DNA of 64,000 bases from Prevotella sp. (lineage in GTDB: Bacteria; Bacteroidota; Bacteroidia; Bacteroidales; Bacteroidaceae), in the NCBI GenBank assembly GCA_017475265.1, contig JAFVFY010000075.1:36942-100941 (forward strand), given 5' to 3'. Shown piece by piece: positions 4,940-32,243 of the stretch. Every line of letters begins with the position of its first letter. Position 1 is the first letter of the stretch. The position numbers and the translations under genes were made by a program. Below the pieces are notes generated by a model. That model did not search any database. It was not told the origin of the DNA and was given only the letters and a program-made list of their open reading frames with translations.

Positions 4940-5134
4940 ATGAAAAAGATGCAATATATCCAGCCACAGACCGAAGTGGACCTGATGCTGCCCGACACTC
5001 AGCTGCTTACTGCGTCAAATACGATTGACGACAAAGCCGACGACGTTATTCTTAACCCTGAAACGATGGAAGGAGGTGACGGTAGTAATGCTGCCTCCCG
5101 CCGCGCTGTATGGTACGATGAAGACGAATTCTAA
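4940..5134 (+). CDS. Small acidic-tailed peptide linked to the secreted protein
   Basis: The product has 64 residues, beginning MKKMQYIQPQTEVDLML, with LLTAS at about 22-26 and ending SRRAVWYDEDEF. Two other secreted-protein genes in this window are followed by equivalents (10847-11041 and 32064-32243), which share the start MK.xYxxPxxE, a central L[LM]xxS and the end SR[RI]xxxWDxxEE. The 27-bp gap after 4912 and the terminator at 5179 suggest co-transcription with the secreted protein. There is no classical signal peptide and no modifying enzyme nearby. I do not recognise a function; a precursor peptide, secretion partner or regulator are all possible. Confidence 0.75.
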   Translation: MKKMQYIQPQTEVDLMLPDTQLLTASNTIDDKADDVILNPETMEGGDGSNAASRRAVWYDEDEF

Positions 5135-5178
5135 CCCCGTCGCTTCATAGCTTTCAGCCCAGTGCTGACATAACTTTT

Positions 5179-5226
5179 CAGGGCGCAGCTGCCATCGTGG
5201 CGGACTGCGCCCTGAACGTTTTTTAA
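5179..5226 (+). terminator. Rho-independent terminator of the 1466-5134 unit
   Basis: The arms CAGGGCGCAG (5179-5188) and CTGCGCCCTG (5205-5214) pair perfectly and are followed by a T-rich run. The hairpin belongs to the same family as those at 11061 and 11916. Confidence 0.85.
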
Positions 5227-5734
5227 TGGGGGGCGCTACGCTCAAAATTGCAAAAAAATAGAATCACAAAATTATAACCTGAATTATTCATTAACTTTTC
5301 TTTTTTACACGAATTTTCATTAATTTATCACGAATTACTCATTAATTTTATTTTTGAATAATTTGTGTCTAATTCGTGGTAATTTGTGTTAAGAATCAAA
5401 GCCATTAGATTAATCCTCGTAATTCTCATGAATAATTCAAGATAGAGTAGTTACTAAGGAACTGACACTAAATAAAGTTGACAATTGGAAACGATGTTTT
5501 TAGTAAAACAGATAAATACAACAAAGACAGATAAAAACCATTCGTCTTGTTTTTCTCAGTATTTCTTGTTTTTTCCTGTATTTCTAAATAACAAATAGTG
5601 AAAACCATTTGACTACCTAATTAAAGTAAATCAGCACCTCTTCTGGAACTTATCATTTTGAGCGAAGCGACCACATTAAGAGAGGGTGCTGAGCAGTTAC
5701 TAATTAAATCACAGTTCCTAAATAATGTGAAATG
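5227..5734. other. AT-rich intergenic region with degenerate repeats
   Basis: No gene was found. About 5300-5395 contains repeated CGAATT / AATTTGTG words like the CGGATT-type repeats at 25.6 and 33.4 kb. An inverted repeat pairs TCAGCACCTCTT (5631-5642) with AAGAGAGGGTGCTGA (about 5678-5692), a possible hairpin before the toxin-antitoxin promoter. Confidence 0.6.
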
Positions 5735-5766
5735 TTTGGTTATCTTCCGAATAATCAGTACCTTTG
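5735..5766 (+). promoter_or_regulatory. Promoter of the Phd/RelE-like operon
   Basis: TTTG at 5735-5738 and TACCTTTG at 5759-5766 are spaced by 20 bp. It lies 36 bp before the antitoxin ATG. The sequence is closely similar to the promoter at 1352-1382. Confidence 0.75.
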
Positions 5767-5801
5767 CAAGCTAAAAGCTAAAACATATAGACCATTTCGA
5801 T

Positions 5802-6068
5802 ATGATAGTAACAGGCAGAGACTTCAGGGCGAACCAGTCGAGGTACATCAGCATTGCCCATAGCGGTGAGGACGTGATACTGAAATCGCGGGCAGGGAGC
5901 GTCAGGCTTATACCTGTAGATACCAGAGAAGCCACAGAAAAGGAATTGAACAGGGTATACATTGAAGATGGAGAGGTGAAAATGGATATCAAAACAGATG
6001 TCATGGAACTGGAAGAATTGAGAGATTTGCTTCACAAAATGGTTGATTTGGAATATTCTTTGCCATGA
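5802..6068 (+). CDS. Phd/YefM-type antitoxin
   Basis: The 88-aa product has the Phd/YefM start pattern: MIVTGRDFRANQSRYI aligns with the DNA-binding N-terminal fold in which a short strand is followed by a helix containing an R..Q..Y pattern, then DVILKSRAGSVRLIPV as the central beta hairpin. The acidic C-terminus (KTDVMELEELRDLLHK) would be the toxin-neutralising part. It overlaps the downstream toxin gene by 4 bp (ATGA), the usual translational coupling. Members of the family bind their own promoter, so 5735-5766 is a likely operator region. The pair is read toward the secreted gene at 6430 and may contribute to its transcription. Confidence 0.75.
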   Translation: MIVTGRDFRANQSRYISIAHSGEDVILKSRAGSVRLIPVDTREATEKELNRVYIEDGEVKMDIKTDVMELEELRDLLHKMVDLEYSLP

Positions 6069-6361
6069 AGTATAAGGTAAAGAAACGATGTTCAATAAAC
6101 ATCGTAAATTTCTATTTGAATGTGTCGCGGAAATATAAACATACGTATTCAAATAGTTTGATGCACAAAAATATTAATGATGCCATTGACGCAATGTTTC
6201 TCATAGAGAAAACGCTACATCGCCGCAAACCGACCATTACCAGGTGGCAAGAGCAGGGATGGCACATGGCAAACACCGAAAAATGGTACTACGCATACAC
6301 CATCGACAACGACACGATAACCATACAGGACGCATGCCACGCACAGAACATGCACGAATGA
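6065..6361 (+). CDS. RelE/ParE superfamily toxin
   Basis: The 98-aa product has a basic N-terminus, a helical region (about 30-60) and a C-terminal beta region WYYAYTIDNDTITIQDACHA ending QNMHE, typical of RelE/ParE-like toxins (mRNA interferase or gyrase poison; which of the two is not clear from sequence). The start ATG overlaps the antitoxin stop. The stop at 6361 is 68 bp from the secreted-protein start at 6430. Decayed copies of its 3' end are found upstream of the two other peptide-linked secreted-protein genes (1404-1433 and 28141-28212), so this is the only intact copy of the arrangement here. Confidence 0.72.
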   Translation: MKYKVKKRCSINIVNFYLNVSRKYKHTYSNSLMHKNINDAIDAMFLIEKTLHRRKPTITRWQEQGWHMANTEKWYYAYTIDNDTITIQDACHAQNMHE

Positions 6362-6429
6362 AAGACACTACAACGACAAATAGACCGAAACGATAATTAT
6401 CATTTATATTAACTAACATTCTTTAATTT

Positions 6430-9400
6430 ATGAGAAAACTAAAACTATTCATGACAGCCTTCGCCTTAGTCGGGGGAGTGAACTTTGCGTTTGCGCAGAC
6501 GAACATTATCGCTGGATGGGACGGTGGTAATGACACTTCATCGCCTTCTAACTTTGGTTGGACTTCTTCTGCTAATAGGACACTTAATGCCCGCAATGCT
6601 AGTGGTGGTATCCGTATGACAACCAACTATTCTGGTTATAAGTTGGAAGACGGAACTTCTTATTCCTATTCAGCCACATCTGACCTGAGCAGCGTTATTT
6701 TCTGGGTGCGATATAATACGTCTGGCGAATCATTCACGTACACATTCAAAGGGTTGGAAGCTAATTATTATTATGATTTTTCGGCCCTTGTAGGATGGCA
6801 TAATAACTCCGATGCCCCAACTTTTACGGTTAAGATAAATGACGGCACTAGTGATTTGGCAACAATGTCAAAGTCTGTTAGTACTAGACAAACATTGTAT
6901 TCTGTAAGTTCTCGATTTAAGACTCCAAGCACAATCACAAATACAACAGACATCAAAATTGTGTTTACTTGTAATAAGACGGGAGACTGTATGGAGGCCA
7001 TTTCTGCCTTAAGTTTGGTTAACGTTGTCCTGAAGGATGAGCTACAGGCTGCTTTGACTTATGCAAATAGAGTGAATACTGCGCTAAACAATAGCACACT
7101 GGCTTCTGCGATAACAACAGCACAGGATGTATATGACGATGCTTCAGCCACACAGGCAGAGGTTGACAGTGCTATACCCACACTGAAAGCAGCTGTTGCT
7201 ACGGCCATTAGCGAGGATTCTCCATCGGACATTTCTTGGGTTCTTGCTAATCCTGGATTTGAAGGCTGTACGGTTACGACAACTAATGCAGCGGCTACAG
7301 CAAGTGCTGCACCTCTTGACATAGCAGGAGATTGGACCCAGAGTAGTTCTGCAGCATGGAGTAGCTCTGCTGTAGTCGCTTATGATGGCGCTGGTCAAGT
7401 TAATGGTGCAAGTGCACCTTCAACTGACGACGCTGGCAATAGTGGTAATACGCTTGGCGTTTCAGTTGGATGGGATGGAATGGTTACCTATCAATCGCCA
7501 GCGATTCTCCTGCCTGCTGGTGTATATACACTGAAAGTGAACGCCTACAATGCCAACAGCGACGCAACACAATTCACCTCTAAGTTTGGCTTTGTTCCGA
7601 CTTCGGGTGATGCTACGTTATCTTCCAAGAATTCCTTCACGGCTAGCACATGGGAAACCGATGAAGTAACGTTCACACTCAATGCCAATACGGAAGGAAA
7701 AATTCAAGTTGGTGGTCAGGCTGTCAGTGGCGGTTCTGGCTCTAACGCCAAGGTTTTCTTCGATAATATTACTATTGGCTATGAAAATCCATTAGCAGGT
7801 GCTATTACAGCATGGAATAATGCACATAGCGCACTTGCTGCTCTTGACGCGACTGCTCTGCCAGATGCAGCTGAAACAGCAATCACAACAGAGTTGGCAA
7901 AGGAACGCCCAGCAACTCAAGAGGAAATCGTATCAGCGTCTGCTGCACTTCAGGCACTTATTGACAGCTATGATGGTATCAAGGCTGCTTTTGATGAGTA
8001 TAAAGCATTGAAGGCACAAGTGGAGGATTTGAAGAATACGAGCAAATACACTTTCACTGGTACAGAAGCTCTGAGTACTTTCAACAGTACCCTTTCCACC
8101 ATTGACACAAGTGCTGAGGGCGCTACCGATGCAGCTACTATTACTGCGCTACTTCCTGATCTGAAGGCTGCCGGAAACACATTCGTCGGGGCAATTGATA
8201 GTAACGACGGATTTGACGTTACTTACAACATCGTCAACAATTCCTTTGAGACAGGAACCCTTTCTCCTTGGACAACCAATGGAAGTAATGACACAGGTGT
8301 GAAAGAGAACAGCAACGGAACATATACTACGACGGGTGTTGATGGCTCATATCTGTTCAACACTTGGAATAATGATGCTGGTAGTAAGGTCAGCCAAACT
8401 CTTTCAAGCTTACCAAACGGTTATTATACCGTGACAGCCCTCGTTGCATCTGATGCAGGTAATACAATCAACATCCTTGCTGGTGCAACAACGAAGACAG
8501 TTGATGCTGACGGAACAAATGGTAAGACTCAATTTGTTGAAGGAACTACCGATAAGACTCTTGTTTCCGATGGATCTTTGGAAATCGGCACGAATTCCAG
8601 TTCATGGTACAAGTCCGATTACTTCCGTCTGACTTATTACACGGTGAAGGCTGGTGCAGCTGAAGCTTGGGCCGCCGCAAAGGCTGCTGCTGAAGCTGCT
8701 CGCGATAATGCTGAATACGCTAATGTAGCAGGTTCCGAGAAGACGAATCTGCTTGCTGAAATCGCAAAGGACGAACCTACTACAGCAGAAGCATACGGAA
8801 CGGCAACTACTGCACTTCAGGAAGCCACCTCTGCTTTCACTGCTGCTAAAGACAGCTATGATGGCTTGATTGCTAAACGTACAGAAGCCACTGCTTATAC
8901 TACCGTAGCTTGGCCATACGCCTCAACGGCTAAGAAGACTGCGTTAAACGATGCTGTGGAGGCTGTTCCCACGGATGCTGCAGATGCAGTGACAAAGACC
9001 AATGCCATAACAACAGCTATCCGTCAGTTCGTGGAAAGTAATGGTGTTGCTGAGGGCGTTGCAGTGGCTGTAAGCTATGCATCAGCCATTGAAGGTGCAG
9101 ACCCAGATGTTAATACAGGCTGGACTGATGGAATAGGTGTAGATAATCGTGGTAACGAAAAATACACCGATGGTAATGGTAACGTTTCTGGAAAGTACTA
9201 TGATGGCGGTTGGTCAACGTCAGCAGGCGTAAACATTAATATGACACGTACTCTGACTCTGCCTGCTGGTCAATACTTGCTGCAAGTCACAGCTCGTGGT
9301 TCTGAGAATCTAACAACATATACCATGTCTGTAGGAGGTGAGTCTGTAAATTTGCCCAAGCAGGGAAGTGGTGTTAATGTCGGTACTTTTGGACATGGCT

Positions 9401-10821
9401 GGAGCGACAAGTATGTTGTATTTACCAGCGATGGAACAGAACTGACTCTGACATTTGCAGCTACTTCAACGGAGTATCAACAGTGGATTTCATTCAATCG
9501 TCTGCGTCTGACAAAACTTGATGCTACTTTGGCAACAGCCGAGGATTATGAGAATTTGAATAACGCTATTGCTGCAGCAGAAGCCAATCTCGGTTTCGAG
9601 GACGGTCAGAGTGCCCCATATAATAATGTTGCTTCTATGGAACTGCTGGTAGCTGCTAAGGCCATAGACCAAACGATAAACAATGTACAGAGTGATGTCC
9701 AGGATGCTACAAGTGCTCTGTTAAGTGCTTCATGGACTGCCAATGACGGCGACGTGAATGCCATATATAATGGTGGGTTTGCTACTGTTGCAGAGGGTCA
9801 GAACTATCCTGACGGTTGGAAGCGCACCAATGGTTGGGGACAGATGCAGTCTGGTATTTCTGGTGATTATGCAACAGCCTACTACAACCAGCCAGGTTCT
9901 CTCCAGTATGGCAACCAAGGTGTCTACACGATGCCGCTTGCTGCCAACACCATTTACAAGCTGGAGTTCGCTTATCGTTCACATGAGGACAATTCGAATA
10001 CTGGTGTAACGGTTTCAGTCCTGAATGGTGAGGAAGGCTTGGCCAATTACACCTTCCCTGGCAACGGCTCTACTTCTAACTGGGCTCTCGTTTCAAAGCG
10101 TTTCAAGACTGGTACTGCCGGTAACTATGTGCTCACTCTTGCCAATGGTGGCAACACATGGATGACAAATGTCTCTTTGGTGAAGGCATCTGCCGACGAA
10201 ATCACCATTACCGAGGAAGCCTATGCTGATCCTGCTGCCAGCGACTATGCCAATGTTACCCTCGCCCGTTCCTTCAATGCTGGTTGGAATGCTGTGTGTC
10301 TGCCTTTCGCCACTACAGCTTTCGACGGTGCAGAGATTGCTGAGTTCACGGGTGACACAGGCGGTGACAACGTGACGCTGAACTTTACCAAGGTAGACGT
10401 TTTCGAGGCTAATAAGCCCTATCTGGTTTACTTCCCCAGTTCAGTTGATGCAGGCAAGGTGTTTGAGGGTGTAGCTGTTGCTCCCGCTGAGGTAAAGGTT
10501 GAAGGTACTGCCTTTGACTTCATGGGAACATACATTGTGAAGGAAATAGCCGCTAACGACTGGGTGGTTTCTGGAGGAAAGCTGATGAAGGCCAGTCAGA
10601 CTATCAACCTGAAGCCCACCCGCACATACTTCACCCCGAAGAGTCCTGAGGCACGTATTGCTCGCTTCACCATCGACGGTGTGGAGGCATCGGGCATCAG
10701 TGCCATCTTCACCGACGAGGCTAAGGCTACCGACGGCATCTACAACCTGCAGGGCCAGAAGGTCAGCGGCAAGATGCAGAAGGGCATCTACATTATGAAT
10801 GGAAAGAAGGTTATCAAGTAA
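6430..10821 (+). CDS. Large secreted surface protein, paralogue of 1466-4912
   Basis: The 1463-aa product has the same signal peptide as the 1466 protein apart from two residues. Jelly-roll-like segments (about 30-195, 270-455, 600-740, 870-1030, 1115-1250) alternate with Ala/Thr/Asp-rich helical segments; one of these carries YANVAGSEKTNLLAEIAK, matching a repeat in the 1466 protein. The shared C-terminal module begins at W1286 (WNAVCLPF) and the tail ends IYNLQGQKV...KGIYIMNGKKVIK. Families with this plan are exported, probably to the cell surface. It lies directly downstream of an intact Phd/RelE-like pair and 25 bp upstream of a 64-aa peptide gene. No catalytic motif was recognised; binding or adhesion is inferred only from architecture. 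Confidence 0.85.
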   Translation: MRKLKLFMTAFALVGGVNFAFAQTNIIAGWDGGNDTSSPSNFGWTSSANRTLNARNASGGIRMTTNYSGYKLEDGTSYSYSATSDLSSVIFWVRYNTSGESFTYTFKGLEANYYYDFSALVGWHNNSDAPTFTVKINDGTSDLATMSKSVSTRQTLYSVSSRFKTPSTITNTTDIKIVFTCNKTGDCMEAISALSLVNVVLKDELQAALTYANRVNTALNNSTLASAITTAQDVYDDASATQAEVDSAIPTLKAAVATAISEDSPSDISWVLANPGFEGCTVTTTNAAATASAAPLDIAGDWTQSSSAAWSSSAVVAYDGAGQVNGASAPSTDDAGNSGNTLGVSVGWDGMVTYQSPAILLPAGVYTLKVNAYNANSDATQFTSKFGFVPTSGDATLSSKNSFTASTWETDEVTFTLNANTEGKIQVGGQAVSGGSGSNAKVFFDNITIGYENPLAGAITAWNNAHSALAALDATALPDAAETAITTELAKERPATQEEIVSASAALQALIDSYDGIKAAFDEYKALKAQVEDLKNTSKYTFTGTEALSTFNSTLSTIDTSAEGATDAATITALLPDLKAAGNTFVGAIDSNDGFDVTYNIVNNSFETGTLSPWTTNGSNDTGVKENSNGTYTTTGVDGSYLFNTWNNDAGSKVSQTLSSLPNGYYTVTALVASDAGNTINILAGATTKTVDADGTNGKTQFVEGTTDKTLVSDGSLEIGTNSSSWYKSDYFRLTYYTVKAGAAEAWAAAKAAAEAARDNAEYANVAGSEKTNLLAEIAKDEPTTAEAYGTATTALQEATSAFTAAKDSYDGLIAKRTEATAYTTVAWPYASTAKKTALNDAVEAVPTDAADAVTKTNAITTAIRQFVESNGVAEGVAVAVSYASAIEGADPDVNTGWTDGIGVDNRGNEKYTDGNGNVSGKYYDGGWSTSAGVNINMTRTLTLPAGQYLLQVTARGSENLTTYTMSVGGESVNLPKQGSGVNVGTFGHGWSDKYVVFTSDGTELTLTFAATSTEYQQWISFNRLRLTKLDATLATAEDYENLNNAIAAAEANLGFEDGQSAPYNNVASMELLVAAKAIDQTINNVQSDVQDATSALLSASWTANDGDVNAIYNGGFATVAEGQNYPDGWKRTNGWGQMQSGISGDYATAYYNQPGSLQYGNQGVYTMPLAANTIYKLEFAYRSHEDNSNTGVTVSVLNGEEGLANYTFPGNGSTSNWALVSKRFKTGTAGNYVLTLANGGNTWMTNVSLVKASADEITITEEAYADPAASDYANVTLARSFNAGWNAVCLPFATTAFDGAEIAEFTGDTGGDNVTLNFTKVDVFEANKPYLVYFPSSVDAGKVFEGVAVAPAEVKVEGTAFDFMGTYIVKEIAANDWVVSGGKLMKASQTINLKPTRTYFTPKSPEARIARFTIDGVEASGISAIFTDEAKATDGIYNLQGQKVSGKMQKGIYIMNGKKVIK

Positions 10822-10846
10822 ACAAACTAAAAAACAAGCAACGATT

Positions 10847-11041
10847 ATGAAAAAGAATTATATTTCTCCTAAAACGGAGACCGTCAAAATAAAGTATAAG
10901 TCTCACTTAATGGATCCATCGGCAACGGGCACGAACATGAGTAGCCAAGGTTTTACCACTCCTATTGAGGTAGGGGGCAGTACAACAACAGCCGACTCCC
11001 GTCGCGCCTCCATTTGGGACGAAGAAGAAGAAGAGTACTAA
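10847..11041 (+). CDS. Small acidic-tailed peptide (second copy)
   Basis: The ATG at 10847 is preferred over an in-frame ATG at 10799, which lies inside the upstream coding sequence. The 64 residues start MKKNYISPKTETVKI, carry HLMDPSA at about 20-26 and end SRRASIWDEEEEEY. It has the same length as the 4940 peptide and the same start and end signatures despite little identity in between. The gap to the secreted-protein stop is 25 bp, and the strong terminator at 11061 closes the unit. Function unknown. Confidence 0.75.
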   Translation: MKKNYISPKTETVKIKYKSHLMDPSATGTNMSSQGFTTPIEVGGSTTTADSRRASIWDEEEEEY

Positions 11042-11129
11042 ACTCCAATTATAAACTACGCTTTCTGGGCGCAGCCGCCACCGTGGCGGTCTGCGCCCAG
11101 AAAGTTTTTATGGAAAAGTTTTGGCGGTT
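11042..11129. repeat. 88-bp direct repeat, left copy (terminator plus promoter half)
   Basis: Identical to 11897-11984 at 86 of 88 positions with no gaps. Each copy contains a terminator hairpin and, near its right end, the TTTG -33 box of the promoter that follows. The copies flank the MazF-like cassette. Confidence 0.9.
11061..11110 (+). terminator. Rho-independent terminator after the 10847 peptide gene
   Basis: The arms CTTTCTGGGCGCAG (11061-11074) and CTGCGCCCAGAAAG (11091-11104) pair perfectly, with an inner CCGCCA/TGGCGG stem, followed by TTTTTA. Confidence 0.9.
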
Positions 11130-11184: not shown

Positions 11185-11487
11185 ATGACAACAGTTGCAT
11201 TAAACAGGGAAACCAGATGTTACTGGGATTTTATTAAGAATGCCAGCATCCAGGAGAAACAGATGCTGATAATGCTTCTCAGTGCTTCCATGAACAATGA
11301 GGAAGACGTGGTGGTAAGACAAAAGCCAGTTGAAGCTCGGCGTCTAAATACTATTGATGACGAAGTAATGCAGATGACTATGCAGGACGAGCCGACTGCA
11401 ATCGAAGCAACTGACGAAGCTTCTCTTTCTGACATAGTGAATTCAAATAAAGGAAAAATCGCTAACGGACTGGAACGATGGCTGTAA
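11185..11487 (+). CDS. Probable antitoxin of a MazF-like pair
   Basis: The 100-aa product starts MTTVALNRETRCYWDFIK and has a helical, acidic middle and C-terminus (DDEVMQMTMQDEPTA...). It has no strongly recognisable domain. The role is inferred from position: its last 10 bp overlap the start of the MazF-like gene at 11478, the coupling usual for toxin-antitoxin operons. The N-terminal part may be the DNA-binding half and the acidic C-terminus the toxin-binding half. The pair sits between two 88-bp direct repeats, so it looks like a recent arrival. Confidence 0.6.
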   Translation: MTTVALNRETRCYWDFIKNASIQEKQMLIMLLSASMNNEEDVVVRQKPVEARRLNTIDDEVMQMTMQDEPTAIEATDEASLSDIVNSNKGKIANGLERWL

Positions 11488-11843
11488 GTGTTGTAAGGCC
11501 TGGAGAAATAGTAGAAGTTCCTTTCCTGCTGCCAGGCGGCGAATTCAAGGCTCATCCTGCGTTGGTTGTTTCACCAACCCGTTTACAAGACGATGAGGAT
11601 GGACTGTTTTATGCCGTTCTAATATCTACAAAGAACCATAACCCGCAATATACCATAGAGCTTAAGAACGAGTGGCTGAACAAGCCAATGCTGCGTCAGT
11701 CATATTTCGTGACGCACATAATGAGTTCTTTTAAGACAGCCGATGTGTATAGTTCCCATAACGTCTTTGTTAAGTCAGAGTATTTCGATAGGATCTTAGA
11801 GAAGACTTTCCTCAGTATCTTTGATGTGGAGATGAAACTTTGA
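11478..11843 (+). CDS. MazF/PemK-like toxin
   Basis: The 121-aa product has the MazF/PemK N-terminal pattern: VRPGEIVEVPFLLPGG, then KAHPALVVSPT (about 27-37), and a central strand YAVLISTKNHN. In MazF proteins the G-[DE]-[IV] loop and the strand with P-[AV]-[LV]-V-[VI]-[SQ] shape the RNA-binding face of this endoribonuclease. The usual R-P at the second motif is replaced here by H-P, so activity is not assured. Length (121) is close to the family's roughly 110-120. It overlaps its partner by 10 bp. After the stop, a relic of a secreted-protein C-terminus leads into the right direct repeat. Confidence 0.72.
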   Translation: MAVSVVRPGEIVEVPFLLPGGEFKAHPALVVSPTRLQDDEDGLFYAVLISTKNHNPQYTIELKNEWLNKPMLRQSYFVTHIMSSFKTADVYSSHNVFVKSEYFDRILEKTFLSIFDVEMKL

Positions 11844-13002: not shown

Positions 13003-13019
13003 CACCTAAAATGAATGAT

Positions 13020-13259
13020 ATGCCTACAGTATTTAATCTATTTGGATACAGATTCTGGTTTTATGGTAATGACCATACGCCCATTCATATTCATGTGAAA
13101 AAGGGTGGTGCTATGGCGAAATTTAATATTTTGCCAATTTCGTTGGTCTACAACCATGGTTTCAAACCGTCTGAATTGAAGATGATTGAGGCGATTTTGG
13201 AAGACAACGAAGAGATTATTGCGCAGCACTGGAACATGTTTTTTAATAACTCTAAATAA
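13020..13259 (+). CDS. DUF4160 domain protein
   Basis: Two ATGs are possible, 13011 and 13020; the second gives MPTVFNLFGYRFWFYGND, the usual DUF4160 start, 17 bp after the -7 box. The 79-aa product shows the family core: FWFYGNDHTPIHIHV (conserved H-x-P-x-H-x-H) followed by a glycine turn and FNILP, then a C-terminal helix with H in AQHW. It lies 3 bp before the DUF2442 gene. DUF4160/DUF2442 pairs are common in bacteria and are suspected to be toxin-antitoxin-like, but no biochemical role is established to my knowledge. Confidence 0.85.
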   Translation: MPTVFNLFGYRFWFYGNDHTPIHIHVKKGGAMAKFNILPISLVYNHGFKPSELKMIEAILEDNEEIIAQHWNMFFNNSK

Positions 13260-13262
13260 GGA

Positions 13263-13676
13263 ATGGAGGTTGCTATGGAGAAGATTGAGAAGATTTGGCT
13301 TACAGATGATGCCGTATGGATAAGAACGGCCAGTGGAAAGGAGGCATGTGAGAAATTCTCTGACTATCCACGCCTGAGATATGCCACAACGGAACAGCGG
13401 GCTAACTATGAGGCTGATGAATATGGGCTTCATTGGGAGGATATAGATGAAGATTTGAGTTTTGAGGGTTTCTTTGACAAAAAAGAAACGACACAGCTCT
13501 ATAAGGTGTTTATGGCTCATCCTGAGTTGAATGTATCTGCCATAGCACGACGTCTTGGCATCTCCCAAAGTCTGATGGCTCAATATATCAGCGGAAAAAA
13601 GAATGCCAGCAATGCAAGGGTCACGCTGATTCTTGATACCGTTCGTGAAATAGGTCAAGAATTGATAGCGGTTTGA
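13263..13676 (+). CDS. DUF2442 domain protein with C-terminal helix-turn-helix
   Basis: The 137-aa product may start at 13263 (MEVAMEK) or 13275 (MEKIEKIW). Residues about 5-75 match DUF2442: IWLTDDAVWIRTASGKE, a beta-rich segment, then RLRYATTEQRANYE and GLHWEDIDEDLS, the family's hallmark W-x-x-[IL]-D-x-D/E-[IL]. Residues about 85-125 form an XRE-like helix-turn-helix (NVSAIARRLGISQSLMAQYI), which fits an autorepressing antitoxin. The two-gene unit sits between MITE-like repeats, so it may move or be lost as a block. Confidence 0.82.
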   Translation: MEVAMEKIEKIWLTDDAVWIRTASGKEACEKFSDYPRLRYATTEQRANYEADEYGLHWEDIDEDLSFEGFFDKKETTQLYKVFMAHPELNVSAIARRLGISQSLMAQYISGKKNASNARVTLILDTVREIGQELIAV

Positions 13677-13928: not shown

Positions 13929-16900
13929 CTATTGGGTGTTTCCGGCCATGATGTCGATAACCATTGCAATGTCGGCCACATCGACTGTGCCGTCACCATT
14001 GACGTCGGCTTTAAGGTTATCGTCAGCTTCAGGGTCAGCGTCAGGATTAAGGCTCACTCCGGCCATGACATCGATGATGGCTGCAATGTCGGCCACGTCG
14101 ACTGTGCCGTCGCCGTTCACGTCGCCAGGAAGGGCGGGAGGTTCAGGCGTGCCCAGCTCGTCTTCCACACCGTGGATAGGCATCGTGGGACCGTCCCAGG
14201 AGCTGAAGAGCGGCATACCCTCGGCCTTGATGATGTAGGCGCAGTAGCTGCCGGGCTTGTAGTGCTCGTCGGTAGAGGCTATGCGGAACCACTCGCCGTT
14301 CTCGTTAAGCTGGTAGCTGCCTGAAGAGGCCCATCCGTTGTACTTGAAGTATCCGCGGAGGTTGCCCTCGTCACGTGATGGTATCGTGGCGGCCTCGCCG
14401 GAGGTGTAGAAGGTGGCCTGGGACAGGTTGGTGAACACGATGTAGGGATGTCCGGCTTCTGGCTCGGTGACCTCTTCGAGGCATACGAGGCTGTAGTCGC
14501 TCATGAGGCCTGCTATGCGGTAGAGGGTGACACCCTCGGGCACTTGGAAGGCGTAGGGCAGGCAGATGGTGGTCCAGCCATTCGGTGTGGGAGTCTTCTT
14601 GAACAGGGGATGGAAGAGGAGGCGGAAGCCGGTGGCGCACCACCAACCCTCTCGTCTGTCGCCTTTGTTGTTGGAGGTATCGCTGTTACCGTAGCGGCGC
14701 CAGGCGTAGTCGGTGGCTCCTTCCTTGGAGCTGGTGAAGCCAATGGTGAGGCTGCCTCCCTCGGGAACGTAGAGTGGAGTGGTGGTGAGGGTCTGCCAGC
14801 CGGGGAGGGTAGAGGGAATGTCGAGATAGTCGCGGGTGAGGGCGGGAGTGACGGCGGTTGCTTCCTCATCGCCGATGGTAGTAGTGATGAATCCGTGCTG
14901 GTCGCTCAGGCAGTAGTGCTGCGTGGAGCTTTTGCACTCCAGGGCATAGAGACCCTCGGAGAGACCTGTTACCTCCTGTTTAACCGTCATGGTCTTGGAG
15001 GTTCCCTCGCTGCTGCTCATTCCGTCCCACCAGGCGTTCCAGCAGGTGAGTCCTTGCTGTGTGGCTGTGCGCTGGTCGCCGCCGGTGTAGGTGCCTACCT
15101 TCGTCTGCCAGTTGGTCTCGTCTTCGAAGGCTGGTGAGAGGGGCTGCTTGGCGGCTTCGGTCAGGGGCATGAAGATGTCAAGTGCCTGTTGCAACTGGGT
15201 CAGGGCGGCGCTGATGTCGGCGGCGGTGGTGGCAGCAGTGGCCTGCTGTTCGGCAGCAAGAAGTTCTTTCTGGCCTTGGAAGAGCATGCTGTCGATGGCT
15301 GCGGCCACGGTGAGCAGCGAGTCGATGACGGCCTTTTGACGCAGGGCCTTGAGGGCAGCATTGGTGGCTTGCTCTATGGTCTTGAGGGCAGCCAGGTCGG
15401 TGCCGTTCTGTGCGTTGACGGCCTGCAGCAGCTCTGTGTTCAGGGCGGGCAGGGTGGTGTTGTATTCGGTGAATGTCTGGGCGCGACGGCGTGCCTGAGT
15501 CACACCGTCGGCGATGGCTTCCTCGTGGGTTTCGAAGAGGCGGTGCAGCTCGATGTCGCTGAGCTGACCTGTGGCAGCCAGCCAGCGGAAGGACAGCAGT
15601 GCCTCGTTATTGTTGCCGCTGTTGAAGATGCCCTGTCGGGTGGCCCAGTAGGTGCTGTTCTTCATCGTGAGACGGTTCTCATCGGAGGTGTTGCCCTTGG
15701 TGCGCACGTCTACCTTTACATAGTCGCCGAAGTTTTGTCCGGCCACCTGGAAGAGGTAGTCCTGTCCCGGCTCGATGTCGAAGGCGGTCTTCAGCGAGCC
15801 GACGTTGTCCTTACCCTGGTTGGCAAAGGCCTGCAGGAAGTAGCCGTCGGTGAGCCGCTTGGGGAATACCTCGAACCAAGGCTGAGAGAGCGGGTCGCCC
15901 ACCCCGTTGGTCCATCCGTGGAGTCCCATCTCGAAGTTGCCGTTGGCGATAATGTTGCCACCCACGTAGCGTGTACCTTTGTCGGTGGTGACGGCCTCGC
16001 CGGCCTCCAGGTCCTCGCTGCTGTAGTAGTCACGTCCGCTGAAGCTGCGTATGTGCAGACGATAGCGGGTGCCCTCGGCGTAGGCATCGTCGGTGAGGGA
16101 GTAGTCGGCCTCGGTGTCCTCAGGCGTGATGGTCTGCCATGTCTCCCAGCCGCCGCCGGGCTCTTTGCGCAGCACCTCCATGAGCTGGTCGTACTCGCCG
16201 TCATAGTCGTGCCAGGTGATGGTGGCCGTGCCGCCGTCGGTGTTCACGCGGAAGTCACGGAAACCACCACGCATGGGCGGTGTGTTGGGCACCTTGGCGT
16301 AGTTGGCGTTGTAGCCCATGCCGGTGAGCTGCTGGGCATACCATTGTCCGGCGCGGGTCAGCTCACCATTGACGTAGAGCTTCGACTTTTCGGCACCTTC
16401 GCTGTTCCAGTAGAAGTAGCGCTCTATGTAGCCCCAGCCGTTGAGCTTGGTACAAATGGTCTGCACGGCCCACTCGTTGTCCCACTCGTTCTTGCCGCTC
16501 TCGAAGATACCGTTATGGTTCCACGATGCGCCCCATATCCACTCTGAAATCCAGATGGGGCGCTTGTATTTCGACTGCATGGCAGCAATGTTGTTGAAGT
16601 CATCGACAGGCCAGTAGCAGTGCAGGTCGACAATGTCGCAGCGCCAGCCATGGGCGTCGATGCTGTCGAGGAAAGTCTTGATGAAGCCCGAACCATCCTT
16701 GTAGTCGCTGCCGTCCCATGACGAGGGCGAGCAGAGACGCATACCAGTGCGCATGAGGTTCTGCCAGTTGTCGAGGATGGTGGCCAGCGACTGCGGCTTG
16801 TCGTCGGCACTGTTGCGCGGCTCGTTGTTGGTCTTCAGATGGCAGGTCCAGGTGGCCTGTCCGCATTTGGCCGACGTGGGATAGTCCTCGTAAAGATGAT

Positions 16901-17660
16901 GGGCCACGCACTCTGCGTCGGGCCCTACGTCATGACCCTGATCCCAGCCATAGCAGCTGATGACGCCGAGGGCCTTCAGCGCGTTGGCATCGGTGCTGCT
17001 GGCCAGTCCTGCCTTTCCTGCGGTGTTCCACTTGAAGATGCGGTAGGACGAGATCTTGCCGTCGAGGATTTGCGGCAGGGTGGCCATCTCCAGGTCGGCA
17101 TTGTTGGCAATGAAGCAGCGCTGGTAGCCGTAGCCGCTTTTCTGCGTGGCGAAGGTCACCATGTAGCCGCGCTTCAGGCGGAAGGAGCGTATGCGGTTGT
17201 TCAGCTTCTGGTCGGTAAGGGTCACCATGTAGCCGCCGGCGTTCTCCAGTCCGAAGTCGCTGCACTGCTCGCCCTCGAAGTTCTGTTCACTATAGACGGT
17301 GAGGGGCTTGTCGGAGGTGGAGTAGGGGAGGATGATACAGCCGTGGGAGCCGTAGAGGCGCACCTGACAGTTCACGTTGTTGCGGGCCACGGCTCCATTG
17401 ATTTTCACACGTGAGGAAAGCATCGAGGCGATGGCCACTGAGGGCTTGATGCGCTCGAGGATAAGGACGGCGTGGTCGGTGTTCACGATGTCTACCTGTC
17501 CGTCGCCGTCAAAGGGCGTGTCGGTGTTTACAATGTAGTCTACGTCGTCGGTGAGGGTGATGCTCTCCGTGACCTGACTAACGGTGGTCTTGGTGTTGGC
17601 TGCAGAGGTGGGCAGAAGGAACGAGGCCACTGCAAAGAGAATGATGAGTAGTCTTTTCAT
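13929..17660 (-). CDS. Secreted GH128-like (Asl1) glycoside hydrolase with dockerin repeats
   Basis: The 1243-aa product has a signal peptide (1-20), a beta/gamma-crystallin-like region (about 122-212: EQNFEGEQCSDF..., IRSFRLKRGYMVTF), and an Asl1/GH128-type catalytic barrel (about 215-445) with candidate acid/base E280 in KTNNEPRN and nucleophile E373 in IWISEWIWG; GH128 members cleave beta-1,3-glucans. Then follow an Fn3-like domain (about 460-545), two jelly-roll carbohydrate-binding-like regions (about 565-690 and 830-970), and the shared module from W1029 (WTTICLPY). Two dockerin-type calcium loops (DVNGDGTVDVADIA) end the protein where other members have a sorting tail. A TAACTTTG box at 17695-17702 precedes it. 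It is divergent from rlmH. Substrate is inferred. Confidence 0.82.
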   Translation of the reverse strand: MKRLLIILFAVASFLLPTSAANTKTTVSQVTESITLTDDVDYIVNTDTPFDGDGQVDIVNTDHAVLILERIKPSVAIASMLSSRVKINGAVARNNVNCQVRLYGSHGCIILPYSTSDKPLTVYSEQNFEGEQCSDFGLENAGGYMVTLTDQKLNNRIRSFRLKRGYMVTFATQKSGYGYQRCFIANNADLEMATLPQILDGKISSYRIFKWNTAGKAGLASSTDANALKALGVISCYGWDQGHDVGPDAECVAHHLYEDYPTSAKCGQATWTCHLKTNNEPRNSADDKPQSLATILDNWQNLMRTGMRLCSPSSWDGSDYKDGSGFIKTFLDSIDAHGWRCDIVDLHCYWPVDDFNNIAAMQSKYKRPIWISEWIWGASWNHNGIFESGKNEWDNEWAVQTICTKLNGWGYIERYFYWNSEGAEKSKLYVNGELTRAGQWYAQQLTGMGYNANYAKVPNTPPMRGGFRDFRVNTDGGTATITWHDYDGEYDQLMEVLRKEPGGGWETWQTITPEDTEADYSLTDDAYAEGTRYRLHIRSFSGRDYYSSEDLEAGEAVTTDKGTRYVGGNIIANGNFEMGLHGWTNGVGDPLSQPWFEVFPKRLTDGYFLQAFANQGKDNVGSLKTAFDIEPGQDYLFQVAGQNFGDYVKVDVRTKGNTSDENRLTMKNSTYWATRQGIFNSGNNNEALLSFRWLAATGQLSDIELHRLFETHEEAIADGVTQARRRAQTFTEYNTTLPALNTELLQAVNAQNGTDLAALKTIEQATNAALKALRQKAVIDSLLTVAAAIDSMLFQGQKELLAAEQQATAATTAADISAALTQLQQALDIFMPLTEAAKQPLSPAFEDETNWQTKVGTYTGGDQRTATQQGLTCWNAWWDGMSSSEGTSKTMTVKQEVTGLSEGLYALECKSSTQHYCLSDQHGFITTTIGDEEATAVTPALTRDYLDIPSTLPGWQTLTTTPLYVPEGGSLTIGFTSSKEGATDYAWRRYGNSDTSNNKGDRREGWWCATGFRLLFHPLFKKTPTPNGWTTICLPYAFQVPEGVTLYRIAGLMSDYSLVCLEEVTEPEAGHPYIVFTNLSQATFYTSGEAATIPSRDEGNLRGYFKYNGWASSGSYQLNENGEWFRIASTDEHYKPGSYCAYIIKAEGMPLFSSWDGPTMPIHGVEDELGTPEPPALPGDVNGDGTVDVADIAAIIDVMAGVSLNPDADPEADDNLKADVNGDGTVDVADIAMVIDIMAGNTQ

Positions 17661-27016: not shown

Positions 27017-27084
27017 TATATTATTATTGTGTCCTCCAAAAATATTTTTCTCTTTTTTTCCTTGGCTGGTTCATAAAAAGTCCG

Positions 27085-27092
27085 TATCTTTG
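27085..27092 (+). promoter_or_regulatory. -7 box of the second Rpn gene
   Basis: TATCTTTG 47 bp before the ATG at 27140. Confidence 0.6.
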
Positions 27093-27139
27093 CACCTTCA
27101 AAGAAAGGAGGAATAATAAAGTCCAGATTACAGATTGAT

Positions 27140-28072: not shown

Positions 28073-28107
28073 ATTTGTTCCCAATTTGAATATTTTCCCA
28101 TATTTAT

Positions 28108-28138
28108 TTTGCCGTTACGGAAATAAAGCGTAACTTTG
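28108..28138 (+). promoter_or_regulatory. Promoter of the 28316 secreted-protein unit
   Basis: TTTG at 28108-28111 and TAACTTTG at 28131-28138, 19 bp apart. The relE relic begins directly after it. Confidence 0.7.
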
Positions 28139-28140
28139 CA

Positions 28141-28212
28141 ACGAAAAATGTGGTAATTGATGATACCATTGAAGTGCTGGATGCGTGCCATGCGTAGAAT
28201 ATGCATGAATAG
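28141..28212 (+). pseudogene. Relic of a relE-type toxin C-terminus
   Basis: In one frame the segment encodes VVIDDTIEVLDACHA, a stop, then NMHE and a second stop. The intact toxin at 6065 ends TIDNDTITIQDACHAQNMHE. The Gln codon has become TAG. No start, antitoxin or upstream toxin part remains. The relic sits between the promoter and the secreted-protein gene, as at 1404-1433. Confidence 0.78.
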
Positions 28213-28315
28213 AGCCGCAATCATTTTAGCGAGAAATAGGAGATACAAAAACATTAATTGCACATACATTTAGAACAAACAATCAACATTATTAACTTTA
28301 TAAAACTATTTAATT

Positions 28316-31300
28316 ATGAGACAAAAACATTTACTTAAATCAATGCTCCTGCTATGCGCCCTGATAGTAGGAAATGCGAGCGTATGGGCAGAAGAGGTGA
28401 CTATTGCCTCGTTCAACTATCCTAATTCAAATGAAGGTTGGACTGTTACTAATCCAAACGATTATGGTACTGGTGGTGGTGGATATTATATTTTATATTC
28501 TGGTGCTTCTATCGTAACGCCTTCCATTAACTGGTCTGGCTACGAAAACATCACTATCACTATTTCTGCACGTAAGTATGGTGGTCCCGACGCTACACAA
28601 GGTAAAATCTCTGTCAGCCAGGGTGAAACAGAACTCGCTTCATATAGTCCGGGTGGTACTAGCATTGTCGCCAGTTCAGCACTTTCTATTTCTCCCACGG
28701 ATGGTACTATTACGATTTCTTGCCCAGGAGCTTCAAGCTCAAAGGGTTGTGGTGTACAGTCGATTGTGATTAAGGGTACTGAGAAGGCTTCCGCTTCTCC
28801 TCTCGCTTCCATCGCTCTTTCTGGTGATTATCCTACAAGTTTCTTTGTTGGCAACGCTTTTAGCCATGAGGGAATGACCGTTACAGCCACATACGAAGAT
28901 GAGACAACGAAAGACGTTACCAGCAAGGCACAGTTCTCTGGATATGACATGGCTACAGTCAGTAGTAGTCAGGAAGTAACCGTTAGTTATACAGAGGGCG
29001 AAGTGACCAAAACCGCTTCATACCAGATAGAAGTAAATGCTATTCCTACGCATACCGTTACTTTCTCAGTTAATGGAACTACTACCACTCAGGACTTCGA
29101 AGAAGGTGCTGCGATTACATTCCCTGAAAATCCTGCTGACGTAGAAGGGAAAATATTCGTTGGCTGGACTGCATCAGCCATTACTGGCGTAATTGACGAA
29201 GCACCGACATTTGTCACTTCTGCTACGATGGATAAGGAGGCACTGACTTTCTACGCCGTGTTTGCCGAAAAGACTGCAGGCACTCAGACTACTAAAACGG
29301 ACAAACTGACATACGAGGTAACTGGTGTAACGAGCTCCTCTTATATGGATTTCTCAAATAAGCAAGTAACAGATGGTTCAGATGCTGTTTATGCTGGGCA
29401 GTGTGCAGGAGGAAGTGGAACGGTTATTCAATTACGTTCAAAAAATAGTAACAGTGGTATTATTTCCACTACCTCAGGTGGTAAATTGAAAAAAGTATCG
29501 GTTGTATGGAATGAAGAAGGTAGCAACACTAGAACGTTGGATGTTTATGGTAAAAATACGCCATATTCAGCCGCCACTGATTTGTATGACAATAGTAAGC
29601 AAGGTACATTATTAGGTGGTATAACCAATGGTTCAAGCACAGAACTGACCATTTCAGGTGATTATACCTATATTGGTCTTCGTTCAAGAAGCGATGCTAT
29701 CTATTTTACTTCGATAACTATTGAATGGACTGCGGGCACTCCCGATACTTATTCTGCATATTGCACTACCGTTGCAGCTGACACTCGCGACGAGGCTGGC
29801 ATCAGCTTCGCCGAGGCAACAGTTACAAAGGAAATAGTGGACAACTACACTGGTCAGACTCTGAATAACCCCAATAACGTTTCCCCGATTACTTGGACGA
29901 GCAGCAATGAGGCTGTGGCTACCGTTGAGAACGGCACCGTGACCGTGATTGCAGTTGGCGAAACGACTATCAAGGCATCGTTTGCTGGTGATGAAACCTA
30001 TAAGAAAGCAGAAGTAAGTTACACGCTGACAGTTCAGGATTCTCGTCAAGCTATTGACCTTTCATTTACTGAGACGTCGGTAACCGTAAATATTACTGAG
30101 ACTGTGGATGCTCCTACGCTGAATGGCAATACTGGCAATGGAGTTGTGACATACGAATCAAGTAATACTGACATTGCCACCGTGGATGCTTCGGGCGTTG
30201 TGACTGGCGTCGCTGTTGGAACCGCTACAATTACGGCTACTGTTGCTGCCACTAATGAGTATCTGGGTGGCACCGCTACCTTCACCGTAAAGGTTGTAAA
30301 CCCGAATGCCAACGACGGCTCAAGCATTGAAAAGGCTTTCACCGTGGCCGAGGCTATTGATGCTATCAAGGCTCTGCCCGACAACGAAGCTACCACGGAG
30401 AAATACTATATCAAGGGTATCGTTTCGTCATTCCAAAAGACAAGTATTGTTGGCGATGGCTCATATTATCGTTACTTCATCAGCGATGACGGCTCAACCA
30501 CAACTGAACTTCAGGTTTTCAAGGGCAAGGGTCTGAATGAAGCCACCTTCACAAATGCAGATGACCTCTTGGTAGGTGATGAAGTTGTGATTTATGGTCC
30601 GATTCAATATTATCAAGGTAAGACACCTGAGATTGCAGAAGGCAACTATCTTGTCAGTTGGAACCGTCCAGCCGACACCACTCCGAGTATCACTTTGGAT
30701 GAAAATACTATTGAAGCTACTGCTGCTGGTGCAGATGGAACAATTACTGTTACTTATAATAATATCACAAATGTGGTAGCAGAAGTTTATTTCTGCGATG
30801 CTGATGGCAATGCTGCCACTTACGACTGGATAACTGCTGACATCAATAATGAGAATAATGTGGAGTTTATAATTGATGCCAACACAGGTGCTGCCCGCAT
30901 GGCCTACATGAAGGTCTATGCCCTTGATGATGATGCTCAGGATGTTTATTCAGAACTCATCACCGTTACCCAGGCTGAGTATGTTGCTCCAGAAGAGACT
31001 ATCGGAAACTTCGTGAAAGTCACCAGCACCGACGACATTACCAGCGGCCAGTACCTCATTGTGTACGAGGATGGTTCCGTGGCCTTCGATGGCAGCCTCG
31101 AAACACTGGATGCAGCAAGCAATACCATTGGCGTGACTATCGAGGAAGGCAAGATTGCCGCTACAGCCACCAATGTCAAGTCGGTGTTCAGTTTTGATGT
31201 GACCGCAGGGACAATCCAAAGCGCATCTGGTCTTTATATCGGTGTGTCAAGCAACAGCAATGGCCTGAAGACCTCGGAAGAAGCTACAAAGTATACCAAC

Positions 31301-32002
31301 ACATTTAGTATTGACGACAGTGGCAATGCTAAAATCTTTGCCGATTTCAGTACGTCCACGATGTATCTAAAATATAATAGTGATAGTGGTCAGAAGCGTT
31401 TCCGCTATTTTAAGAACGATGGTCAGAAGTCTATCCAGCTCTACAAGTTCGTTGCTGATGCCGAAGATGTTGAAGTTACAGTCTCCGCTGCCGGCTATGC
31501 CACCTACTGCTCCACGAGCGACCTTGACTTCTCGGCTACTGGCCTGACTGCCTATAAAGCCACTATCACGGGCTCTGAGGTGAAATTTACTGAGGTTAAG
31601 CAGGTTCCCGCTGGTCAGGGCGTACTGCTGAAGGGTACTGAAGGTACATACTCTGTTCCCGTTGTCGCCAATGCTGCCGCTCTTACGGGCAACGCCTTCA
31701 TCGGTGTCACTGAGGTAACTCCCGACGTTCCCGCTGGCATCTTCGTCCTGATGAATGGTGACAAGGGCGTAGGCTTCTACAAGACCACGAAGACCTTCAA
31801 ATTGAGTGCAAACACAGCTTATCTGCCCGCACTGGCAGAAGGTGCTCGCTCATTCATCGGCCTCGGAGAGGCAACTGGCATTGATGGCATTGCCGCTGAG
31901 AAGATGATCAATGGTGTGGTGTACAACCTGCAGGGTCAGCGCGTTACGAAGGCTCAGAAGGGACTCTACATCATGGACGGGAAAAAGGTTCTGGTGAAGT
32001 AA
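28316..32002 (+). CDS. Secreted surface protein with bacterial Ig-like domains and C-terminal sorting-like tail
   Basis: The 1228-aa product has a signal peptide (about 1-25). After a jelly-roll region (about 27-155) come a bacterial Ig-like domain (about 160-243), an InlB B-repeat-like unit (about 245-320; EGKIFVGWTAS), another beta sandwich (about 325-480), two Big_2-like domains (about 500-570 and 575-660; TWTSSNEAVATVENG and VTYESSNTDIATVDASG), an OB-fold/DUF6359-like region (about 668-785; YYIKGIVSSFQK), and a BACON-like domain (about 790-880). The last 130 residues hold a variant of the C-terminal module and the tail VYNLQGQRV...KGLYIMDGKKVLVK. A 59-aa acidic-tailed peptide follows at 32064. 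Function is unknown; surface binding is inferred. Confidence 0.83.
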   Translation: MRQKHLLKSMLLLCALIVGNASVWAEEVTIASFNYPNSNEGWTVTNPNDYGTGGGGYYILYSGASIVTPSINWSGYENITITISARKYGGPDATQGKISVSQGETELASYSPGGTSIVASSALSISPTDGTITISCPGASSSKGCGVQSIVIKGTEKASASPLASIALSGDYPTSFFVGNAFSHEGMTVTATYEDETTKDVTSKAQFSGYDMATVSSSQEVTVSYTEGEVTKTASYQIEVNAIPTHTVTFSVNGTTTTQDFEEGAAITFPENPADVEGKIFVGWTASAITGVIDEAPTFVTSATMDKEALTFYAVFAEKTAGTQTTKTDKLTYEVTGVTSSSYMDFSNKQVTDGSDAVYAGQCAGGSGTVIQLRSKNSNSGIISTTSGGKLKKVSVVWNEEGSNTRTLDVYGKNTPYSAATDLYDNSKQGTLLGGITNGSSTELTISGDYTYIGLRSRSDAIYFTSITIEWTAGTPDTYSAYCTTVAADTRDEAGISFAEATVTKEIVDNYTGQTLNNPNNVSPITWTSSNEAVATVENGTVTVIAVGETTIKASFAGDETYKKAEVSYTLTVQDSRQAIDLSFTETSVTVNITETVDAPTLNGNTGNGVVTYESSNTDIATVDASGVVTGVAVGTATITATVAATNEYLGGTATFTVKVVNPNANDGSSIEKAFTVAEAIDAIKALPDNEATTEKYYIKGIVSSFQKTSIVGDGSYYRYFISDDGSTTTELQVFKGKGLNEATFTNADDLLVGDEVVIYGPIQYYQGKTPEIAEGNYLVSWNRPADTTPSITLDENTIEATAAGADGTITVTYNNITNVVAEVYFCDADGNAATYDWITADINNENNVEFIIDANTGAARMAYMKVYALDDDAQDVYSELITVTQAEYVAPEETIGNFVKVTSTDDITSGQYLIVYEDGSVAFDGSLETLDAASNTIGVTIEEGKIAATATNVKSVFSFDVTAGTIQSASGLYIGVSSNSNGLKTSEEATKYTNTFSIDDSGNAKIFADFSTSTMYLKYNSDSGQKRFRYFKNDGQKSIQLYKFVADAEDVEVTVSAAGYATYCSTSDLDFSATGLTAYKATITGSEVKFTEVKQVPAGQGVLLKGTEGTYSVPVVANAAALTGNAFIGVTEVTPDVPAGIFVLMNGDKGVGFYKTTKTFKLSANTAYLPALAEGARSFIGLGEATGIDGIAAEKMINGVVYNLQGQRVTKAQKGLYIMDGKKVLVK

Positions 32003-32063
32003 TGTGATTAAGGTTAATTCGAATTATTAGTTTCAAAAAACCAATAAAGAAAGGAACAACAAT

Positions 32064-32243
32064 ATGAAAACACAGTATCAGGCACCTGCGATAGAATTTC
32101 TCTTCGCTGACAGTGAGAGTCTTTTAGAAGGTTCACTGCCCCAGACCCTCACGGACGGCCAGGATCTCGGTAATGCCCCCACGACAGATGCTACAAAGGG
32201 TAACCTCTCCCGCATAAACATCTGGGACAACGATGAGGAGTAA
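32064..32243 (+). CDS. Small acidic-tailed peptide (third copy)
   Basis: The 59 residues begin MKTQYQAPAIEFLFADSESL, carry LLEGS at about 20-24 and end LSRINIWDNDEE. It has the same plan as the peptides at 4940 and 10847 (xYxxPxxE start, LLxxS, then SR..xxWD and acidic end), though the middle differs. It is too short to appear in many automatic gene calls. The stop is 61 bp... downstream of the secreted-protein gene's end begins its start codon, and a strong terminator follows at 32266, so the two genes form one unit. Function unknown. Confidence 0.75.
   Translation: MKTQYQAPAIEFLFADSESLLEGSLPQTLTDGQDLGNAPTTDATKGNLSRINIWDNDEE

Follow-up and report, generated by a model that had tools for sequence, protein, structure and literature searches.

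Small YxxP peptides encoded behind Type 9 secretion cargo genes of Prevotella as candidate RiPP precursors

Gene pairs in the window

The stretch of DNA analysed here, referred to as the window, comprises 64,000 nucleotides of a Prevotella sp. genome (assembly GCA_017475265.1, contig JAFVFY010000075.1, positions 36,942 to 100,941). It contains three gene pairs, each consisting of a long open reading frame (ORF) for a secreted cargo protein and, directly behind it, a short ORF for an acidic peptide. The cargo proteins end in a module resembling a short C-terminal domain (CTD) of the Type 9 secretion system (T9SS), and the peptides are probably precursors of ribosomally synthesised and post-translationally modified peptides (RiPPs), similar in type to the linear phosphorylated peptides (LPPs) of Bacillota. 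The features are as follows:

1466..4912, + strand: T9SS cargo gene 1 (1148 aa; signal peptide by eye; short CTD terminal; ORF reading)
4835..4912, + strand: short T9SS CTD-like module of cargo 1 (shared module family)
4940..5134, + strand: precursor-like peptide 1, 64 aa (ORF, profile)
4940..5008, + strand: predicted leader of peptide 1 (Y6xxP9, through L23; motif, cleavage point placed by analogy with LPP)
5009..5131, + strand: predicted core of peptide 1 (first residues T-A-S26; acidic tail with W)
5179..5224, + strand: terminator-like hairpin (about 5179-5214) and T run (by eye)
6430..10821, + strand: T9SS cargo gene 2 (1463 aa; ORF reading)
10741..10821, + strand: short T9SS CTD-like module of cargo 2 (sequence)
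10847..11041, + strand: precursor-like peptide 2, 64 aa (ORF, profile)
10847..10912, + strand: predicted leader of peptide 2 (Y5xxP8, through M22; motif)
10913..11038, + strand: predicted core of peptide 2 (first residues D-P-S25)
11061..11110, + strand: terminator-like hairpin (about 11061-11103) and T run (by eye)
28316..32002, + strand: T9SS cargo gene 3 (1228 aa; Big_2 and List_Bact_rpt domains; ORF, domain search)
31922..32002, + strand: short T9SS CTD-like module of cargo 3 (sequence)
32064..32243, + strand: precursor-like peptide 3, 59 aa (ORF, profile)
32064..32126, + strand: predicted leader of peptide 3 (Y5xxP8, through L21; motif)
32127..32240, + strand: predicted core of peptide 3 (first residues E-G-S24)
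32267..32307, + strand: hairpin 3' of peptide 3 (by eye)

An earlier sequence-only reading, made without database searches, had placed the three peptides at these positions, and all three ORFs were confirmed there on the + strand with ATG starts. The gaps of 27 bp, 25 bp and 61 bp in pairs 1 to 3 agree with the 25-61 bp it had given. The terminators that it had located behind the peptides are visible by eye as hairpins at all three sites; a simple promoter/terminator scan listed none of these hairpins on the + strand and is uninformative. A plasmid search gave no match.

One C-terminal module, [VI]Y[DN]LQG[QR]..V....KG[LI]YI.[ND]GKKV..K, closes all three upstream ORFs. The description of these ends as sorting-like was right: the module resembles the short T9SS CTD of Prevotella intermedia, for which the available text of PMC11969387 reports 48 predicted short CTDs, the first 22 of 40-51 aa, with a three-stranded sheet. 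Both cases share the short CTD and the large number of cargos per genome. In the main text of that paper the words "downstream" and "operon" have no occurrences, so paired genes are not described in those words. The established CTD models PF18962 and TIGR04183 gave no match to the window proteins at E<=1. The genome from which the window comes (own genome) contains 127 places with the CTD module at E<=1, the weakest of them doubtful, as well as SprA at 2541 bits, sprA being the T9SS component covered by the search. The cargo architectures are mixed (CBM26, Big_2, BACON, cohesin-like and fn3 domains), and the same arrangement of CTD and peptide recurs behind unrelated domains (CBM26, Big_2, BACON, cohesin). 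The window also encodes a protein with a dockerin type I domain at 13929-17660 (PF00404, 1e-8), and elsewhere in the genome a T9SS cargo is cohesin-like (L061; PF00963, 1.7e-6); it is possible, judged from these domains, that the two take part in cohesin-dockerin complexes.

The peptide family and its cargo genes

A profile of the three peptides, then of ten, matched the own genome (4.75 Mb in 135 contigs) at 28 places, of which 27 carry an intact peptide. Together with one further peptide recognised by its position behind a CTD gene (L084), this amounts to 28 intact copies. A fragment (L029, G000:C4:25340-25426), which is a degenerate tail resembling that of L004 with the leader absent, was removed before counting. 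At L024/L032 two peptides stand in tandem. From a small sample of genomes 118 distinct family members were collected, with profile E-values down to 1.6e-20. The three window peptides have no Pfam or NCBIfam match at E<=1, and single family members hit only unrelated families at E 0.026-0.14, none of which is credible.

At E<=1e-3 the peptides occur in 31/36 genomes of the genus and in 0/24 genomes from other families, while 8/247 genomes across the order are positive, the own genome counted. Within the family, 113/201 genomes from 17/30 genera contain them at E<=1e-4. Matches in related genomes were read at one or a few best loci each. One of the eight order-level positives, G344, has 24 matches, and the seven read there all follow a CTD-like end by eye; no such end precedes the peptides examined in G289 or some of those in G443 and G477. 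The proportion of non-synonymous changes was lower than that of synonymous changes (pN < pS) in 13/14 close pairs; L177/L178, which differ by 2 non-synonymous changes and 0 synonymous ones, are the exception. The pairs were picked at >55% identity, overlap and are in several cases saturated, and the support from this result is weak.

The peptides begin with a YxxP motif in 117 of the 118 distinct members. A Ser follows the Tyr at a distance of 19 residues in 78 of these 117, of 20 in 27, of 21 in five, of 18 in two and of 23 in one, which gives a Ser site in 113/117 and a spacing of 18-21 in 112; two peptides have Thr instead and two have no site. These counts lean towards the motif and the spacing, because the collecting profile includes the YxxP start and the placing rule prefers Ser near 19. 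Plain alignments show the same Ser in >=90% of rows. Downstream of YxxP lie hydrophobic positions, often ending in [ML][ILM]-[AC]-x-S, with A at S-2 in 56/115 and C in 18/115. The part behind the leader is variable and acidic (median pI 4.05), with a W within the last 16 residues in 104/118. Charge pairing between the peptide tail and the CTD was noticed as well.

The sequence-only reading had described both peptide ends as kept. This holds for the start and for the Ser near residue 24, which are constant, whereas the C-terminal end is looser, Ser being more constant than Trp across the peptides. Its proposal of a recognition end with a variable core agrees well with the data, and a more definite identity can be given to the recognition end: the start is best read, from its sequence, as a RiPP leader of the N-terminal YxxP type, suited to a PqqD-like RiPP recognition element (RRE).

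The association with secreted proteins was examined from both sides. Among the 28 peptides of the own genome, 26 have an upstream CTD gene by profile; L084 was found through such a gene, and L026 precedes, by 27 bp, a gene for a 1605-aa protein that combines M6 peptidase and endonuclease I domains with a CTD-like end. Across own, related and family genomes, 72 of 86 profile-found peptides follow a CTD gene, which was recognised by profile in 71 cases and by position in the case of L084. The other 14 comprise two behind a different basic tail (L125, L157), one preceding a CTD gene (L026), three with too little upstream DNA (L137, L140, L182) and eight that neither follow nor precede a CTD gene (L138, L139, L141, L142, L143, L152, L159, L163). 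Starting from the CTD, a peptide was found within 350 bp behind 26/94 CTD genes compared to 0/208 other genes (Fisher p 4e-15). This sample consists of 80 named-genome loci, mostly metagenome-assembled genomes, retrieved through the CTD rather than through a peptide, with titles of Prevotella, Prevotellaceae, Bacteroidaceae, Bacteroides, Bacteroidales and one Prevotellamassilia; since the CTD query was built from peptide-bearing cargos, 26/94 may overstate the rate among CTD genes in general. The outcome that the earlier reading had named as refuting it, peptides equally frequent away from such genes, was thus looked for and did not occur.

A finer correspondence is seen in nine peptides with a common YGG[VI]D core, where 8/8 with a readable cargo have homologous cargos, while the next-nearest cargos have no YGG[VI]D core behind them. 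In a permutation over all pairs, core similarity tracks cargo homology, and leader similarity does too (both p 0.0002). The YGG[VI]D subfamily is therefore the cleaner core-cargo case, the all-pair permutation not being decisive. The suggestion that each peptide is a dedicated partner of the large protein thus receives partial support from the 26/94 versus 0/208 genes and from this one core.

Several YxxP peptides (L138, L139, L141, L142, L217, L277 and several G289 loci) are encoded upstream of genes whose products have lipoprotein-like signal peptides, some of these products being fimbrillin-like by eye. Such peptides would represent a second mode of association with surface proteins. At L267:1501-2610 (G477) a YxxP leader and a lipoprotein-like protein share one frame of 369 aa, either a natural fusion or a lost stop.

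Maturation genes in related genomes and in the own genome

The comparison with LPP, described in 2026 from Bacillota, refers to the available text of PMC13381572. There, the cluster contains an archaeal-type signal-peptidase-like protease (SpI), an RRE, an HprK-like kinase, a nucleotidyltransferase (NTP transferase) and an MsbA-like transporter. YxxP is required for RRE binding; SpI together with the RRE cuts the leader at T-1/A1-Q2-S3, and phosphates are placed on Ser3. In the RRE LppB, D70 forms a bond with the Tyr of the leader, and the kink at Pro is held by N33 (PMC13381572).

RRE, HprK and SpI genes are widespread in related genomes. PqqD was found in 23 of 28 chosen genomes, as a single copy in 18 of these 23. 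In 30 PqqD/RRE loci reaching 1.5 kb each way, the RRE profile matches 26, and RRE, SpI and HprK stand together in 18. Within the family, 163/201 genomes have the HprK-like kinase and 162/201 have SpI, with 162 having both; among genomes with peptides, 107/113 have the kinase. The SpI, which resembles SEC11A, has an invariant Ser/His/Asp in 13/13 aligned sequences, and the kinase, which resembles HPr kinase, has its P-loop in 11/11. NTP_transf_5 (PF14907) was found in all four neighbouring proteins picked from G082, G108, G318 and G018, and ABC (ATP-binding cassette) domains in G344 and G134, with a partial ABC ORF in G323. The RRE profile matches LppB (9x8z, E 1.1e-5) and the RREs of lasso peptides. 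The equivalents of LppB N33 and D70 are invariant in 14/14 RREs (13 relatives and the own genome), in a contact comparison that covers residues up to M78 and in which the V63 column looks shifted.

The precursors are mostly dispersed outside the maturation cluster and lie inside or adjoining it in G323, G082 and G108. G323 has the order cargo (PF18962), RRE, YxxP peptide, HprK, SpI and, 1.1 kb on, the partial ABC ORF. In G082 a CTD cargo is followed by YxxP peptide, NTP transferase and SpI, in G108 by YxxP peptide, NTP transferase and RRE, both less than 5 kb from sprA. The block HprK-SpI-RRE-ABC directly adjoins sprA in G134. In distance comparisons, where most pairs lie on different contigs, HprK is <=18 kb from sprA in three (G134, G204, G102) of 119 genomes with listed places for HprK and SprA, and a SpI copy lies within about 11 kb of sprA in G082 and G108, among only four SpI places compared.

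The only RRE found in the own genome lies on contig C30 (4415 bp), in the order radical SAM (rSAM) gene, 40-aa YxxP peptide containing Cys, RRE and start of SpI (cluster at L328:404-1653, G000). On its sequence, this rSAM-peptide-RRE-SpI group is a putative RiPP cluster of its own. The SpI is represented by its first residues (..NGHSMLPF..) at E 9e-7, compared to 0.56 for the best shuffle. In G018 the same gene order is kept and continues with HprK; in this genome a CTD cargo and YxxP peptide also lie beside rSAM and RRE genes. At that place (L331:7119-8102) a protein with a C-terminal PqqD domain was seen beside rSAM, RRE, YxxP peptide and CTD cargo. At L223:3111 a gene resembling a radical SAM sulfatase maturase by eye begins just behind a YxxP peptide.

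The system seen here and LPP share the YxxP leader, a Ser soon after it and a variable C-terminal core, and likewise the RRE, the archaeal-type SpI with Ser/His/Asp and the HprK-like kinase, the last as found in relatives; the nucleotidyltransferase and the MsbA-like ABC exporter stand beside them here in part of the loci (PMC13381572). They differ in layout, LPP having one to three precursors inside one cluster compared to up to 28 dispersed ones here, most behind T9SS cargo. The hosts differ too, Bacillota there and Bacteroidota here, and the stem "bacteroid" occurs 0 times in the main text of PMC13381572. Paeninodin-like lasso peptides, as treated in the same text, resemble the present system in an aromatic-xxP leader, RRE, HprK-like kinase and NTP transferase. 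Neither of the two enzymes that would mark the difference, macrolactam cyclase and B2 peptidase, was noticed by eye in the loci here, no profile search being aimed at them. RiPP clusters of Bacteroidales, as far as the available text of PMC10352776 describes them, also have precursors near rSAM genes but differ in their annotated leaders, which mostly belong to the GG type and are accompanied by C39 peptidase transporters.

Interpretation and alternatives

Altogether, we consider it probable, with considerable room for doubt, that the peptides are dispersed precursors of LPP-type RiPPs, each paired with a T9SS cargo and processed by one trans-acting module. From the gene order, cargo and peptide would be co-transcribed from one operon. 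The first 21-23 or so residues, MKKxYxxP...[ML][IL], would form the leader, and the PqqD-like RRE, usually one per genome, may bind its Tyr and Pro, the residues for this being present in the RRE. The HprK-like kinase would then phosphorylate the conserved Ser behind the leader, often in [AC]-x-S, as the counterpart of LPP Ser3, and the archaeal-type protease would cleave before this triplet. An MsbA-like ABC exporter, the weakest of the gene links, would carry the acidic core out of the cytoplasm. Outside, one may speculate that the core acts with the cargo, its middle matched to the cargo family and its W/acidic end meeting a common partner. As a tentative and rather doubtful extension, the exported phosphopeptide could be cargo-specific and joined to or assembled with the cargo at the cell surface, where it might serve, for example, as an anchor, a linker or a brush; a RiPP pathway would then be built into T9SS surface display.

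The following observations weigh against this interpretation. We infer leader binding, modification, export and purpose of the peptides from sequence. An ABC exporter motif was found in only 4/18 RRE-SpI-HprK loci within the 1.5 kb reach, and in several module loci other genes follow by eye instead. The NCBIfam scores lie below the curated cut-offs (SpI 47.3/35.8 bits for TIGR02228, kinase 34.9, ABC 212.9). In the assembly that contains the window, the search found no HprK-like kinase (best E 0.15), the SpI is truncated and its contig ends inside the operon; since a radical SAM gene accompanies the single RRE found there, tailoring in the own genome may differ. The two precursors of rSAM clusters score only E 0.019 and 0.093, yet above all 5000 shuffles. 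Compared to the Bacillota consensus YxxPxVLxHQxIxFETxxS in the available text of PMC13381572, HQ/FET is not conserved and the Tyr-Ser spacing is mostly 19-20 instead of 18. Because HQ/FET is not conserved, the peptides are not filed in the Bacillota LPP family but only as a separate branch working alike.

The distribution of genes speaks both ways. In favour, peptides were found in 101/136 genomes with HprK and SprA, in 6/27 with HprK only, in 6/19 with SprA only and in 0/19 with neither, although the Fisher tests on this co-occurrence ignore phylogeny. Conversely, 35 of the 136 genomes with both genes have no peptide at E<=1e-4, and 12 of 113 peptide genomes lack an HprK or SprA match in the searches. 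RRE and HprK have a wider distribution than the peptides and are present in peptide-free genomes, and the module therefore has other substrates. Most CTD genes stand without a peptide: of the 127 CTD places in the own genome, 90 were examined downstream, and 24 of these, counted by hand, have one. Finally, since the leader tracks cargo homology too, common descent can explain the match of core and cargo.

One alternative is a dedicated cytoplasmic helper: the small acidic protein would bind the nascent cargo and keep it export-competent, its ends binding common parts and its middle the cargo. Type III chaperones keep their effectors export-competent in a comparable way. The small size, the acidic core, the missing signal peptide (by eye), the gene adjoining the cargo and the core matched to one cargo family in 8/8 all agree with a helper. 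It would leave unexplained the YxxP motif and conserved Ser site, the link to operons with RRE, SpI and NTP transferase, the invariant Tyr- and Pro-binding RRE residues, and the peptides in front of lipoprotein-like genes. We regard it as unlikely; the chaperone reading was set aside once RRE-linked operons appeared.

According to a second alternative, the peptides are RiPP precursors modified by a radical SAM enzyme and not phosphorylated, the RRE bringing the leader to the rSAM enzyme, which would act on the W/acidic end. The C30 cluster, the CTD cargo and peptide beside rSAM and RRE in G018, and the W near the end of 104/118 peptides would fit. However, HprK and SpI accompany the RRE in 18/30 RRE loci and both genes occur in 162/201 genomes, while rSAM was seen beside the RRE in only three stretches (own genome, two in G018), no profile search for rSAM being made. 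The Ser is also more constant than the Trp. We regard modification by rSAM as about as unlikely as the helper.

Thirdly, the N-terminal motif could be a mere regulatory or targeting tag, the peptide hitch-hiking with a duplicating cargo 3' end as a cassette of CTD, peptide and terminator. The recurrence of CTD and peptide behind unrelated domains would be expected from such a cassette. With pN < pS in 13/14 chosen pairs, the Ser in 113/117 and peptides also found before lipoprotein-like genes and inside maturation operons, hitch-hiking appears quite improbable. That the peptides are chance ORFs or annotation artefacts, as their shortness and the missing family model might suggest, is hardly credible in view of 118 distinct members, E-values down to 1.6e-20 and the position behind cargo genes.

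Returning to the LPP-type reading, what is new is the layout, in which many precursors scattered behind T9SS cargo genes would be served in trans by one module. A literature search, extending to few subscription journals, found no description of YxxP peptides behind T9SS genes among the titles, abstract openings and texts available. The interpretation given by the sequence-only reading is thus partly supported; the maturation module, the 28 copies and the peptides before lipoprotein-like genes had not been foreseen.

Besides the gene pairs, the window contains a tandem array at 111-238 (22-bp unit, 5.8 copies) beside a PDDEXK_2 gene at 293-1204, and, between cargo genes, a PemK-like toxin gene and a DUF4160/DUF2442 pair at 11478-11843 and 13011-13676.

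The results suggest that a peptide-modification system and the T9SS work together in a way not recognised before. If the LPP-type reading is true, a pathway so far described from Bacillota would act, in bacteria abundant in rumen and gut, on precursors scattered by the dozen over each genome. Each precursor would be tied to one secreted surface protein, which would connect RiPP chemistry with the T9SS. A function would also be given to a large class of small proteins that now lack annotation, with 118 distinct members in a small sample.

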